Shown piece after piece: positions 10,945 through 37,624 of a stretch of DNA of 64,000 bases. The translations under genes were made by a program, and so were the position numbers. The stretch comes from Flaviaestuariibacter sp. (GTDB taxonomy: Bacteria; Bacteroidota; Bacteroidia; Chitinophagales; Chitinophagaceae): contig JAOQAI010000014.1 of assembly GCA_025963645.1 (NCBI GenBank), positions 1-64,000 of the forward strand, in the 5' to 3' direction. The notes beneath the pieces were generated by a model that was not told the origin of the DNA, did no database searches, and saw only the letters and a list, made by a program, of their open reading frames with translations. Each line of letters begins with the position of its first letter. Positions within the stretch are counted from its first letter, which is position 1.

Positions 10945-11011
10945 GAAATTCGATAATTTATCAATTTGCCAATTCGGTAATAGCAGGACACAGCCTGCTT
11001 TAATTCCAGCT

Positions 11012-11019
11012 TAACTTTG
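11012..11019 (+). promoter_or_regulatory. Bacteroidota -7 box (TAACTTTG)
   Basis: A TAnnTTTG match 61 bases upstream of the ispG ATG at 11081, in an AT-rich region with short GAATT/CAATT repeats on both sides. Confidence 0.45.
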
Positions 11020-11080
11020 CGCCCATCGGTTTGTTCTTAAATTGCTGAATTATCAAATTGTCGAATTGACGAATTACTCC

Positions 11081-13567
11081 ATGCAGCTTTATACTGAAAA
11101 TCTTATCTCTTATAAAAGACTCCCTACGAGGGAAGTATCGGTGGGTGGTTTATTGTTAGGAAATCGGCATCCAATTCGGGTGCAGACCATGACCACTACT
11201 GATACCATGGATACGTTAGCGACAGTAGAACAAACCATCCGCTGCATAAAAGCGGGCGCAGAACTGGTACGCATTACGGCGCCGTCAAAAAAGGAAGCCG
11301 AGAATCTGTTGCACATTCGAAACGAGCTGCATCGTCGCGGCTACAAAACGCCATTGGTGGCGGATATACATTTCACGCCCAATGCTGCTGAAATAGCGGC
11401 CCGCATTGTAGAGAAAGTCCGGGTGAATCCGGGCAATTATGTCGATAAGAAAAAGTTTGAGCTGATTGACTATACCGATGCGGATTATGCGGAAGAGATC
11501 GACCGCATCCGGGAACGGTTTACACCACTGGTAAAAATCTGTAAGGAATACGGAACGGCTATGCGAATCGGCACAAATCATGGTTCGCTGAGCGATCGCA
11601 TCATGAGCCGCTATGGCGATACGCCGATGGGCATGGTGGAAAGCGCGATGGAGTTTCTGCGAATTGCACGGGGAGAAAGCTATCACAATATTGTGCTGAG
11701 CATGAAATCTTCCAACCCACAGGTAATGGTGCAGGCTTATCGCTTGCTGGTGCGCACTATGCAGGATGAATTCGGTTTGGCTTATCCGTTACACCTGGGC
11801 GTGACGGAAGCAGGCGATGGCGAAGATGGTCGCATCAAAAGCGCCGTCGGTATCGGCACTTTGCTGGAAGAAGGCATTGGCGATACGATACGCGTATCGT
11901 TGACGGAAGATCCTGAGTTGGAGATACCGGTTTGTAAGGATATAGTGAAGCGATACAAGAGCCCATCCCCAAAAGTTGGTCTGGATGTGGAAGAGGGTAC
12001 TAAAGCCCCTTCCCGGTGGGAAGGGGAGGACGCGTCTGATATTCTTGTAGAAGAAGATACTGTTGGATATCGATATGCTGATCCGGCGCTTTATGGTTTG
12101 TTGAAAGGTTTTGTAGAAAAGCATCGTTCTAATCCTACTCCGGCGGAAGCAGCCATGTGGATACTGCTTAGGACAAAAAAGTTGGAGGGCTATAAATTTA
12201 GAAGACAACATATCATTGACCGTTACATTGCTGATTTTATTTGCCTGAAAGAAAAGTTGGTTATTGAGATTGATGGACTAATCCATCAACTACCGGAAAA
12301 CATGGCTAGTGATGAAATTCGTACCAATGCTTTAAAATCTATTGGTTTTCGTGTTATTCGCTTTTTTAATGAACAAGTAATAAATCAAACTGAGCAAGTA
12401 ATTGAAGAAATACTCTCTAACCTAAAACAAGACCGCACTAACAAAGAACACAACGACCTAAGTTCCCCCACCGGGGGACAGGGGGCTTACAAACGCCGCG
12501 AAACCTTTGAAGTATCGAACATGGGTGGGCGCCAGGTGCCGGTGGTGATAGCCGATTTGAGTAAGCTATCTAGTATCTCGCCAACCGATTTGCAAAGCAT
12601 CGGTTACACGTATAATGAACTTACAGATAAGTGGACCATTGCAGATACAGCAGCTGATTACGTCTTCACCGGTAATACCATTTTGCCTTTTGCCCTGCCG
12701 GGAACATTGAAAGTAATTGTTTACCCGGTTACCTGGCTTCAAACAGAAGACAAAGAGAAATACTTTCCTATCTGGGAGGATGCCGCTTACACAAAAGCAG
12801 TGAAAAAGAGCTCGCTTAATTTTGTAATGGTAGATTGTTACAGCGAGGAGCCGGTAGAAGTAGATTACACCAACCTCGAGGCATGCGCTAAGGATTCATC
12901 TGTGGTGCTCTGCCTCAGTAGTCAACATAGCCAGTCCATGCCTGCTGTGCGGCGAATGTTTATTGAGCTGATGAACCGCGGAATAAAAAACCCGGTAGTC
13001 ATTATCGTTGACAGTAATTGGAGCACGCCAGATGAACACCTGGTGCATTATGGTACCGAAGCCGGTGCGCTATTGCTGGATGGCTTCGGCGACGGTATCT
13101 GTTTAGGTATGACGGCGGAAAGCTATCAGCGGCAAGCTACTAGTTTGGGCGCCGTCAGCGGTCGCAACTACCAGCAAACTACCACCGTTGAAGGATTCAT
13201 CAATAATGTTGCTTTCATTATCCTGCAAGCTACCCGCACCCGCATTTCTAAAACCGAATATATTTCTTGCCCTTCCTGTGGCCGGACGCTGTTTGATCTG
13301 CAGGAAACCACGGCAAAGATCCGGGCGGTAACGAATCACTTAAAAGGCGTAAAGATTGCCATTATGGGATGCATTGTAAATGGGCCGGGAGAGATGGCGG
13401 ACGCTGATTTTGGGTATGTCGGCAGTGGTCCAGGAAAGATCACCCTATACAAAGGAAAAGAGGTGGTGAAAAAGAATGTGCCGAGTGATGTTGCGGTAGA
13501 AGAATTGATCAACCTCTTGAAAGAGAATGATGCCTGGATCGATCAGGAATTAACTATTACGAATTGA
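11081..13567 (+). CDS. ispG: 4-hydroxy-3-methylbut-2-enyl diphosphate synthase (IspG) interrupted in frame by a DUF559 element
   Basis: IspG catalyses the reductive ring opening of MEcPP to HMBPP in the MEP isoprenoid pathway. Residues 1-290 form the TIM barrel, about 470-690 the extra A* domain of the long Bacteroidota form, and the C-terminus carries the [4Fe-4S] ligands in SCPSCGRTLFDL and MGCIVNGPGE. Residues about 294-469 are foreign: GC-rich palindromes surround a complete DUF559 domain (about 350-450; NPTPAE, D385-F, E396-I-D398-G). The frame is intact throughout, and removing the insert leaves about 652 residues, near the usual length. The insert lies at a domain boundary, so activity may survive. 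ATG 11081 is preferred over an upstream start at 11042. Confidence 0.92.
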   Translation: MQLYTENLISYKRLPTREVSVGGLLLGNRHPIRVQTMTTTDTMDTLATVEQTIRCIKAGAELVRITAPSKKEAENLLHIRNELHRRGYKTPLVADIHFTPNAAEIAARIVEKVRVNPGNYVDKKKFELIDYTDADYAEEIDRIRERFTPLVKICKEYGTAMRIGTNHGSLSDRIMSRYGDTPMGMVESAMEFLRIARGESYHNIVLSMKSSNPQVMVQAYRLLVRTMQDEFGLAYPLHLGVTEAGDGEDGRIKSAVGIGTLLEEGIGDTIRVSLTEDPELEIPVCKDIVKRYKSPSPKVGLDVEEGTKAPSRWEGEDASDILVEEDTVGYRYADPALYGLLKGFVEKHRSNPTPAEAAMWILLRTKKLEGYKFRRQHIIDRYIADFICLKEKLVIEIDGLIHQLPENMASDEIRTNALKSIGFRVIRFFNEQVINQTEQVIEEILSNLKQDRTNKEHNDLSSPTGGQGAYKRRETFEVSNMGGRQVPVVIADLSKLSSISPTDLQSIGYTYNELTDKWTIADTAADYVFTGNTILPFALPGTLKVIVYPVTWLQTEDKEKYFPIWEDAAYTKAVKKSSLNFVMVDCYSEEPVEVDYTNLEACAKDSSVVLCLSSQHSQSMPAVRRMFIELMNRGIKNPVVIIVDSNWSTPDEHLVHYGTEAGALLLDGFGDGICLGMTAESYQRQATSLGAVSGRNYQQTTTVEGFINNVAFIILQATRTRISKTEYISCPSCGRTLFDLQETTAKIRAVTNHLKGVKIAIMGCIVNGPGEMADADFGYVGSGPGKITLYKGKEVVKKNVPSDVAVEELINLLKENDAWIDQELTITN
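11957..12490 (+). mobile_element. Palindromic element carrying a DUF559 domain, inserted in frame in ispG
   Basis: About 528 bases interrupt ispG. Near the left end CCCCTTCCC (12006-12014) and GGGAAGGGG (12018-12026) form a perfect 9-bp hairpin with a GGT loop. At the right end, 12457-12488 contains CCCCC-ACC-GGGGG (12465-12477) and is nearly identical to 58627-58656 (reverse) and close to 58856-58888. The two ends are therefore in opposite orientation. Between them lies an open DUF559 domain, of the PD-(D/E)xK/Vsr-like endonuclease fold, with its acidic residues kept. I infer a mobile element in which DUF559 may act in mobility; the exact borders are estimates. Confidence 0.75.
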
Positions 13568-13645
13568 ACATAGCCGTTTTTCTAAAAAATGGCATGGATG
13601 ATCCGGCGCTAAGAACCATCATCCATCAACTATGAACCCTCAAAT

Positions 13646-15355
13646 ATGCAAACAGATTATTTAGTCATTGGATCAGGGATAGCTGGCTTAACCTATGCAC
13701 TAAAAGTAGCACAGCATTTTCCGGAAAAACAAGTCACCATCATCACCAAAGCTGCTGCAGATGAAACGAACACCAAGTATGCACAAGGCGGTATCGCCGT
13801 AGTAAATGACCTGGAAAATGACTCTTTTGATAAACATATTGAGGACACGCTGATTGCCGGTGATGGCTTGTGTAACCCTGAAGTAGTGGAGATAGTGGTG
13901 AAGGAAGGCCCTGCAAGAGTGCAGGAGATCATTAACTGGGGCGCCCAGTTTGATAAAGACCCAGAAGGAGACTATAAGCTGGGTATGGAGGGAGGTCACT
14001 CCGAGTTTCGCATTCTGCATTATAAAGATGTGACCGGTAAGGAAATGGAGCGGGCACTATTAGCGGCTGTTGAAAGAGCACCGAACATCACTATCGTAAA
14101 GCATTGTTTTGTTATCGATATCATTACGCAGCATCACCTGGGATATCTTGTCACTAAATCTACTCCTGATATTTGTTGCTATGGTGTGTATGTGCTAAAC
14201 ACCGCTAACAACCAGATAGAAAAGATCATCTCCAATACAACGCTCCTGGCCACCGGTGGTAACGGGCAAGTCTATCGCACCACTACCAATCCCTACATCG
14301 CTACAGGTGATGGAGTGGCGATGGTGTACCGCGCTAAGGGTCGCATTGAGAATATGGAATTCATCCAGTTTCATCCTACTGCCTTATACGAAGCAGGCAA
14401 GCGGGGACAAGCTTTTCTCATCACCGAAGCGGTCCGTGGCGATGGCGGTATTTTGCGCAACAGCAGTGGTGAAGCTTTTATGGAACGTTATGATCACCGA
14501 AAGGATTTAGCGCCGCGTGATATCGTAGCCCGTGCCATTGATAATGAAATGAAGATTGGTGGTACGGAGCATGTGTGGCTCGATTGCCGGCACATGGAAA
14601 CCGAAAAATTCAAAGATCATTTTCCGAATATTTATGAAAAGTGTTTATCGCTTGGCATTGATGTCGCAAAGCACATGATTCCTGTCGCACCGGCAGCGCA
14701 TTATAGTTGCGGAGGTATCAAAACCGATGAATGGGGCAGAAGCTCTATCAAGAATTTATACGCCTGTGGCGAATGTGCGAGTACGGGTTTGCATGGGGCT
14801 AATCGCTTGGCTAGTAACTCACTTTTGGAGGCAATGGTGTTTGCGCATCGGTGTTATAAAAGCCTCCTCCAAACCTCCTCCAACCGAGGAGGCTTTGCCG
14901 CCACACCAGGCCAGCTTAGCGGAGTGTCTTCTGATGAATCGAATACGTTGCAAAGCGGGCCTTGTGGAGCAGCGGCTCCCTCTCCGGCTACGCTGGAGAG
15001 GGCGGGGGGTGAGGTCCCCGACTGGAACGCCCAAGGCACTTCCGAACCAAAGGAGATGATTTTGATCACCCAAAGCCTGAAAGAATTGCAGCAGGTGATG
15101 AGCGATTATGTGGGCATCGTAAGAAACACTATTCGCTTGGAAAGAGCAATCAAGCGCATTGATCTGCTCTTTGAAGAGACAGAAGGCTTGTATCAAACAT
15201 CTACTGTTTCACCGCAGTTGCTGGAGTTGCGCAATATGATCACGGTAGGCTACCTGATCACTAAAGGCGCATCGTTCCGCAAGGAAAGCCGCGGACTGCA
15301 CTATAACGTGGACTTTCCGGATAAGTCAGATTTGGTTCAAAATATTGTTTTGTAA
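13646..15355 (+). CDS. nadB: L-aspartate oxidase (NadB) with an in-frame palindromic insertion
   Basis: NadB oxidises L-aspartate to iminoaspartate, the first step of NAD synthesis with NadA. The N-terminal FAD motif is VIGSGIAGLTYALKVA. The family block KYAQGGIAVV, the succinate-domain segments MEFIQFHPTALY and ITEAVRGDGG, the SCGGIKTDEWGR stretch and the ANRLASNSLLEAMVFAHR signature are all present. Residues about 406-456 are extra, Ser/Ala/Gly/Pro-rich sequence encoded by two palindromes, located between the catalytic part and the C-terminal helical domain, which resumes at VPDWNAQGT. Without it the length would be about 518, normal for the family. It follows ispG by 78 bases and precedes the acyltransferase by 7, a likely operon. 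Confidence 0.93.
   Translation: MQTDYLVIGSGIAGLTYALKVAQHFPEKQVTIITKAAADETNTKYAQGGIAVVNDLENDSFDKHIEDTLIAGDGLCNPEVVEIVVKEGPARVQEIINWGAQFDKDPEGDYKLGMEGGHSEFRILHYKDVTGKEMERALLAAVERAPNITIVKHCFVIDIITQHHLGYLVTKSTPDICCYGVYVLNTANNQIEKIISNTTLLATGGNGQVYRTTTNPYIATGDGVAMVYRAKGRIENMEFIQFHPTALYEAGKRGQAFLITEAVRGDGGILRNSSGEAFMERYDHRKDLAPRDIVARAIDNEMKIGGTEHVWLDCRHMETEKFKDHFPNIYEKCLSLGIDVAKHMIPVAPAAHYSCGGIKTDEWGRSSIKNLYACGECASTGLHGANRLASNSLLEAMVFAHRCYKSLLQTSSNRGGFAATPGQLSGVSSDESNTLQSGPCGAAAPSPATLERAGGEVPDWNAQGTSEPKEMILITQSLKELQQVMSDYVGIVRNTIRLERAIKRIDLLFEETEGLYQTSTVSPQLLELRNMITVGYLITKGASFRKESRGLHYNVDFPDKSDLVQNIVL
14859..15013 (+). repeat. Double palindromic element inside nadB
   Basis: First palindrome: AAAGCCTCCTC (14859-14869) pairs perfectly with GAGGAGGCTTT (14886-14896). 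Its 34-bp core, 14866-14899, matches the reverse complement of 61583-61616 in pyrC at 31 of 34 positions. Second palindrome: 14978-14988 pairs with 14992-15002 (11 bp, one wobble, TAC loop), and its right flank to about 15016 resembles the reverse complement of 42761-42781. The whole segment encodes about 51 in-frame residues. Confidence 0.8.
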
Positions 15356-37593: not shown

Positions 37594-37624
37594 AAAAAAG
37601 GGCTGCAATTGCAGCCCTTTTTTT
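37594..37624 (+). terminator. Rho-independent terminator of the SusCD operon
   Basis: GGGCTGC and GCAGCCC separated by AATT, flanked by an A-run and followed by seven T. It can act in both directions. Confidence 0.9.

Follow-up and report, generated by a model that had tools for sequence, protein, structure and literature searches.

The ispG gene and its insert

The stretch of DNA analysed here, which we call the window throughout, is 64 kb of a Flaviaestuariibacter sp. genome, and its ispG gene (IspG/GcpE; 11081..13567, forward strand, window coordinates) carries an in-frame insert of about 530 bp that encodes a DUF559 nuclease domain between palindromic arms. The frame is open from 11042, with its first in-frame ATG at 11081 and its stop at 13567, and the frame, Pfam and NCBIfam agree that host coding sequence flanks the insert on both sides. 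Pfam matches GcpE in two stretches of the 841-aa frame, one on either side of a single DUF559 domain (PF04480, aa 359-461, E = 3.6e-33, 114.1 bits against a cut-off of 20.6), and the whole frame scores 447.5 bits with the NCBIfam model ispG_gcpE (TIGR00612, cut-off 280.25), which bears out an earlier, sequence-only reading of this locus as a complete DUF559 domain in frame within ispG. CPSCGR and GCIVNGPGE, which we take to be the iron-sulphur motifs of IspG, are both intact in the translation. The insert takes the place of the loop that follows VKRY, where the N-terminal match to the GcpE barrel ends (residue 261 of 3noy). This loop has 191 residues, versus 40 in each of L122 and L120, the closest empty relatives among those shown; the roughly 176 extra codons counted earlier are therefore right for the whole insert but not for the net gain, which is +151 codons.

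From left to right, and all on the forward strand, the insert consists of an outer arm GCCCATCCCC (11961..11970), a spacer, a GC-rich hairpin CCCCTTCCCGGTGGGAAGGGG (12006..12026) encoding APSRWEG, the DUF559 domain (12116..12424) and a right palindromic arm TTCCCCCACCGGGGGACAGGGGGCTT (12463..12488) encoding SSPTGGQGA. The GC-rich palindromes that the sequence-only reading saw as bounding the insert can be located as CCCGGTGGG at 12012-12020 and CCCACCGGG at 12467-12475, both within GC-rich hairpins. Because the outer arm lies beyond the left hairpin, we place the start of the element near 11960; the outermost four bases of that arm, GCCC, pair with GGGC at 12483-12486. Left arms are C-rich and right arms G-rich, and both are read through in the frame of the nuclease. 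Coding arms of the ispG kind (type A) also flank copies in the metH and M23 peptidase genes of relatives: the arm GCCCATCCCC recurs on the left side of copies L043, L050, L041 and L042, which lie in M23 and metH genes, the arm encoding APSRWEG is shared by the remnants L130, L131 and L126, and a matching right arm is found in metH copy L042, M23 copy L043 and remnants L131 and L126.

Conservation and predicted fold of the nuclease domain

The assignment of the domain to the Vsr/EDxHD-like nucleases comes from Pfam and from a solved homologue, 3hrl (E = 2e-20). A model of the insert has a mean predicted local distance difference test score (pLDDT) of 81.4, with values above 90 over most of DUF559; a model of the full-length fusion (mean pLDDT 52.7) is confident only over DUF559 and uninformative for the IspG part. 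Searched with the insert model, Foldseek returned the endonuclease-like 3hrl first (E = 1.2e-7), then the homing endonuclease I-Bth0305I (3r3p, E = 4.2e-4) and, lower down and weaker, Vsr (1vsr, E = 0.062). The predicted catalytic residues, given this role on the strength of the fold, are D385 (12233), E396 (12266), D398 (12272) and H402 (12284), numbered from the ATG and together spanning 12233..12286. The first three had already been noted as intact; in a 38-row alignment (A3) E396, D398 and H402 are invariant and D385 nearly so, and among 186 copies (a set that leaves out named copies identical to earlier ones) the numbers with an intact D, E, D and H are 183, 185, 183 and 186. Of the 45 most similar pairs, which are not independent of one another, 29 allowed a ratio of non-synonymous to synonymous rates (dN/dS) to be computed, and 28 of these gave values from 0.04 to 0.25. 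Across these sequence comparisons the predicted catalytic residues are under purifying selection. Judged by model and residues, the insert's DUF559 has both the fold and the residues of the PD-(D/E)xK, Vsr/EDxHD-like nucleases, the class named in the sequence-only reading, and cleavage is predicted. The DUF559 profile used here leaves out domains below 50 bits and the divergent L060.

The same loop in related genomes

We surveyed ispG in 195 genomes of the family (190 with a match) and inspected the loops by eye in 18 congeneric genomes. Within the genus, the loop holds the full insert in one genome (the source genome, G000), nuclease-less remnants of the same type in three (G014, G001 and G017), other short palindromic inserts in four (G011, G016, G010 and G003) and nothing in nine (G002, G004, G006, G007, G008, G009, G012, G013 and G015), with G005 unclear. 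The insert is thus far from being shared by all relatives, as an ancient domain would be.

Two further loops bear on the origin of these inserts. In G127, which belongs to another genus, the same ispG loop holds a full DUF559 element with different ends, whose nuclease domain falls elsewhere in the DUF559 tree (Shimodaira-Hasegawa-like approximate likelihood ratio test support, SH-aLRT, of 94, just below the 95 mark); a single origin for the two ispG copies is therefore disfavoured. The remnant in the ispG loop of G014 has an exact 30-nt block in common with the full copy that G014 carries in an M23 gene, versus 22 nt in common with the ispG copy of G000, which points to movement between genes within one genome.

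Copies in other genes and other genomes

Searching the source genome for more DUF559, an idea of the sequence-only reading, gave four copies in all: those in ispG and, again in frame, in leuS, one with clean inverted ends between mreB-like and mreC-like genes, and one standing alone. DUF559 is present in 30 of 58 relatives and in 106 of 214 genomes of the family. The 58 relatives have 63 matches of at least 68 bits (a threshold of our choosing), 28 of them in open frames 250 aa or longer, and recognisable host sequence lies on one or both sides in 27 of these.

Among the loci that were fetched we distinguish 118 DUF559 copies, 88 in long host frames and 30 standing alone, a split that gives no rate because long frames were fetched on purpose; of those standing alone, six overlap another frame of at least 100 aa and the remaining 24 are clear of any such frame. 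The commonest host is leuS (33 copies, 25 at one loop and eight at another), followed by a B12-dependent mutase (11), metH (seven, plus two at another site), argB (six, amino-terminal), aroC (five) and M23, cinA and adeC (three each). There are two copies each in ispG, metG, tdo, hsdR, an Lhr helicase and a DUF5522 protein, and single ones in a RecQ-like gene, in hemE (carboxy-terminal) and in one more case. Family scans confirmed the host class for one representative of each main host, leuS included. The host names mreB, mreC, nadB, icmF and recQ are in part presumed by us; Pfam backs the enzyme class for the nadB-like gene, the mutase and the helicase. One leuS frame holds two DUF559 copies in G029 and in G161, as does an acetyl-CoA synthetase gene.

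An alignment scan for type A in named genomes, limited to the best 80 loci among 492 relatives, yielded 82 copies, 81 in long frames and one ending at a contig edge. Recognised sites in metH, metG, cinA, adeC, hutU or tdo account for 75 of the 82 and seven lie elsewhere. By motif, 36 copies are at the metH cap/B12 linker (two at an edge), six at a second metH linker and three in the metH homocysteine domain; 13 are in metG with three more in a later part of that gene, and cinA has seven (one at an edge), adeC three, hutU two and tdo two. Carriers among these loci include Flavisolibacter nicotianae, F. longurius, Cnuella takakiae, Leeuwenhoekiella parthenopeia, Christiangramia sediminis, Flavobacterium zepuense, Salegentibacter holothuriorum, Winogradskyella and Ignavibacterium. 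The same site is therefore occupied in homologous genes across taxa (25 copies at leuS site 1, eight at site 2 and at least 36 at the metH cap). Three phage and 38 plasmid records match, all at less than 60% identity, and no phage or plasmid vehicle was found among them.

A second type of end and nuclease-less elements

Ends of a second type (type B) start with CCTCAC and finish with GTGAGG, and are frequent in leuS, aroC and the RecQ-like helicase. The type-B pattern has 51 matches in G010 and 22 in G011, where the reversed control pattern has none, and no match in eight of the 18 congeners. In the source genome it has three matches, all in leuS, which argues against a large nuclease-less family there; that leuS gene (L176, G000:C10) holds a DUF559 element in one of its loops and, in a second, a nuclease-less scar with type-B ends. 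In G010, 16 of 17 fetched regions gave a nuclease-less element that has inverted type-B ends and is 184-271 bp long, in most cases 194-217 bp, and mean pairwise identity among these and two short elements from G011 is 0.72 (two of the 20 short-element regions have no element by the pattern). The one DUF559 match of G010 stands alone, between ends related but not identical to those of its short elements. The short elements look as non-autonomous derivatives of a nuclease-bearing element would, and may be mobilised in trans. A AGAGCGGATGCC..GGCATCCGCTCTT palindrome lies at the centre of most of the 16 from G010 (L388-L404).

The bases that adjoin the type-B ends on their outer side tend to be complementary across the element. 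In 30 copies the summed complementary extension is 46, versus a shuffled mean of 18.3, with none of 20000 shuffles as high; pairing is found in 24 of 30 at position -1 (12.3 expected) and 15 of 30 at -2 (7.4 expected), with no excess at -3 (11 versus 9.1). We do not claim a palindromic target site, because the shuffle ignores subfamilies and the short elements of G010 mostly share GA..TC at these positions. Automatic anchoring of ends chose the wrong right end in at least one copy (L034).

Nor do we claim an exact homing site in leuS, where the elements enter a single hypervariable loop at points a few codons apart. In Thermus LeuRS (1h3n) this loop falls between residues 235 and 243; its length varies even in element-free genomes, so the hotspot may reflect tolerance in addition to targeting. 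A comparison of empty sites within the genus (16 genomes) met loops too diverged for a clean junction. In G057 the leuS loop used by DUF559 holds instead an unrelated nuclease-like domain, PBECR3 (L183, G057:C6:40979-41308, E = 1.4e-18). As a second element of this sort PBECR3 was set aside: it has six matches in five of 248 genomes of the order, of which the G057 match alone is known to be in leuS; one other lies in a 458-aa frame.

A probable mobile element translated within its hosts

We consider it likely that the ispG insert is a palindrome-ended mobile element with its own nuclease, which is translated within the host protein and later decays to coding scars. The insert is in frame, it is present in some congeners and absent from others, its end types recur across host genes, its predicted catalytic residues are conserved under purifying selection, nuclease-less forms exist, and remnants of the same type lie in the ispG loop; from these we infer that the element moves. 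Repeated arrival is suggested most clearly at leuS site 1, where nuclease distances hardly follow those of the hosts (Mantel r = 0.15, a value reached by 118 of 2000 permutations; n = 23, two of the 25 copies being left out for lack of anchors). This site needs 12 changes on the DUF559 tree, at least three of them forced by well-supported branches, and the different end types within the one loop argue in the same direction. The sequence-only view of a mobile palindromic element tolerated as a protein insertion is thus supported, as the insert is not fixed in the genus and has copies in other genes; its picture was too small, the phenomenon being family-wide, with full, nuclease-less and decayed forms.

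Several results weigh against this reading. Copies at leuS site 2 track their hosts (r = 0.52, 22 of 2000 permutations, n = 8) and those at the metH cap do so strongly (r = 0.62, 0 of 2000, n = 34), which fits long vertical residence; residence thus looks long at some sites, and others seem to have been invaded repeatedly. The DUF559 tree has few columns, and 54 of its 115 inner branches are open. No target duplication of at least 3 bp was seen in the 30 type-B copies (2 bp in five of them), so a classical transposition footprint is missing. Type-A ends are worn in many named copies; in the best 80 loci, 53 of 79 score higher than any of the 73 controls. Finally, one pair of copies (L316/L341), with very few changes, has a dN/dS of 0.46.

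How such an element might work follows from its layout. With arms and nuclease open in one frame, a copy landing in a permissive loop becomes an extra translated domain; its C-rich and G-rich arms would encode linkers rich in proline and glycine, and splicing at the RNA or protein level would not be needed. Made as a domain of the host protein, the Vsr/EDxHD-kind nuclease would cut or nick DNA, perhaps in the palindromic ends or in an empty site and its surroundings. The repair machinery of the host, drawing on an occupied copy or acting through the palindromes, could then insert the element elsewhere. Spread would be partly homing-like, into the same loops of homologous genes, and partly into new genes. 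Copies that keep the frame in permissive loops would survive, others would be purged or left between genes, and after arrival the nuclease would often be lost through in-frame deletion, leaving a short coding scar.

An alternative that we judge unlikely accepts a mobile element whose ends are recognised by an unrelated enzyme acting in trans, with DUF559 as cargo or repair aid only. Such an enzyme would suit G010, where nuclease-less copies with the same ends are common while the one DUF559 match stands alone. Against it, the predicted catalytic residues are under purifying selection across the 186 copies, and Pfam finds only DUF559 in the insert, although no search was aimed at a trans enzyme.

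Rather less likely, in our view, is that DUF559 is a domesticated domain, fused for the benefit of the host (for example to guard the gene from foreign DNA) and inherited vertically. Purifying selection and the correlation of metH-cap copies with their hosts would agree with such a domain, as would the PBECR3 domain in the same leuS loop of G057; patchy presence and decay at ispG and leuS inside one genus, and the failure of leuS site 1 copies to track hosts, speak against it, and it gives the palindromic DNA ends and the nuclease-less copies no role.

Inteins and introns are the textbook route by which a nuclease gene hides in an essential gene, namely by splicing out. Inteins have their homing nuclease translated in frame within conserved essential proteins, and their sites are reused across taxa (see also PMC3943268); the elements described here share both features. 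That the present insert is likewise removed before or during function (as an intein, as an intron or by translational bypass) seems very improbable to us. Long complementary ends could bring its edges together, and a passage on intein-containing genes calls DUF559 an EDxHD homing-type endonuclease (PMC9403480). Yet the Pfam scan of the ispG frame gave only GcpE, DUF559 and a sub-cut-off MTES_1575 match, with no protein-splicing (Hint) domain, and Rfam has no match to an intron or other RNA element at E up to 1 in window positions 11000-13600. All embedded copies are in frame, by construction of the search, and splicing would not require this.

We give next to no weight to the idea that hypervariable loops captured a stand-alone DUF559 gene by chance, or to an error of metagenome assembly: the loops do vary in length without any element and the source assembly is 63% complete, but the same end types and loops recur across genera, in single-contig genomes (G003 and, in an M23 peptidase gene, G015, among them) and in named isolates, and this recurrence of the architecture in many genomes makes the mis-assembly considered in the sequence-only reading very unlikely.

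Relation to known systems

The nearest parallel to the translated mobile element proposed here is found in the Rickettsia palindromic elements (RPEs), which PMC10969869 and PMC2229807 describe as palindromic mobile elements in frame in conserved protein genes; the latter source gives a case in gmk, with the product translated and tolerated. The ispG-type elements are likewise in-frame palindromic insertions in conserved genes. RPEs differ in being about 105-150 bp long, and the word endonuclease has no hit in the accessible text of the same two sources, whereas full copies here carry a conserved nuclease domain, stand beside nuclease-less forms and belong to another phylum (relatives in the Chitinophagaceae).

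A DUF559 gene has been assigned to the EDxHD family (PMC9403480), and by Foldseek the modelled insert falls in the fold class of the EDxHD homing endonuclease I-Bth0305I. Those described in PMC3943268 and PMC9403480 reside in self-splicing introns or free-standing genes; the nuclease here stays in frame in a host protein, has palindromic ends and is a domain of about 105 aa without a long DNA-binding extension. VsrA and Vsr-like DUF559 proteins share the domain and, in PMC12907096, are placed in the PD-(D/E)xK superfamily with genetic evidence for DNA damage, but VsrA is there a free-standing, mismatch-repair-like gene and no mobile insert. The nuclease-less copies of G010, at 184-271 bp, have terminal inverted repeats like the miniature inverted-repeat transposable elements (MITEs) treated in PMC10969869. 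The 30 DUF559 copies differ from MITEs and DDE-type transposons in lacking a target duplication of at least 3 bp, and the partner full element of the short copies encodes a nuclease and not a transposase. In the open-licence full texts searched, a body from which subscription papers and preprints are mostly absent, we found none linking DUF559 to palindromic elements or in-frame insertions.

Whether these elements form a distinct selfish class is, on present evidence, evenly balanced in our estimation. Such a class would consist of non-splicing, coding-compatible homing or transposing nuclease elements that colonise essential genes of Bacteroidota as domains of host proteins, with ends that would act as recognition sites in the DNA and as linkers in the protein; the class would yield nuclease-less mobile derivatives and permanent coding scars that reshape conserved enzymes, and RPE-like palindromes elsewhere could be its derivatives. 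The element seems to need no splicing, being readable in frame and landing in permissive loops, and its encoded nuclease is a candidate for how in-frame palindromic elements move, an open question since the Rickettsia elements. It would account for unexplained domain insertions in leuS, metH, aroC, ispG and other genes, and its sites mark permissive loops useful for protein engineering. Annotation is affected too, because such fusions are no misassemblies.

Other palindromes in the window and unusual copies

The nadB-like gene that adjoins ispG (13646-15355) contains a nuclease-less, in-frame palindromic scar at 14860..15016 on the forward strand, whose left arm is type-A-like and whose right end is of type B (CCCTCTCC..GGAGAGGGCGGGGGGTGAGGTC). 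Its ends suggest that it belongs to the same element family, and it is perhaps a nested scar. Scanned for hairpins with arms of at least 8 and at least 70% GC, the 64-kb window has three, whereas 20 mononucleotide shuffles (a less refined control than dinucleotide shuffling) average 0.15: one in the ispG insert, one in this nadB-like neighbour and one at 37599. The last (37599-37618) resembles an ordinary terminator, with T's behind it.

Some copies depart from the usual arrangement. In six genomes (L046, L051, L234, L238, L240 and L249) DUF559 forms the amino-terminal part of acetylglutamate kinase, encoded by argB; these copies are one clade of the DUF559 tree (support 97) and possibly derive from a single old fusion. 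In L045, L048 and L304 the amino-terminal half of a short DUF5522 protein contains DUF559. In the Lhr-type helicases L218 and L220 the palindromes flanking DUF559 have the opposite orientation (the left arm ends GCGAGG or GTGAGG), as if the elements were nested or inverted.

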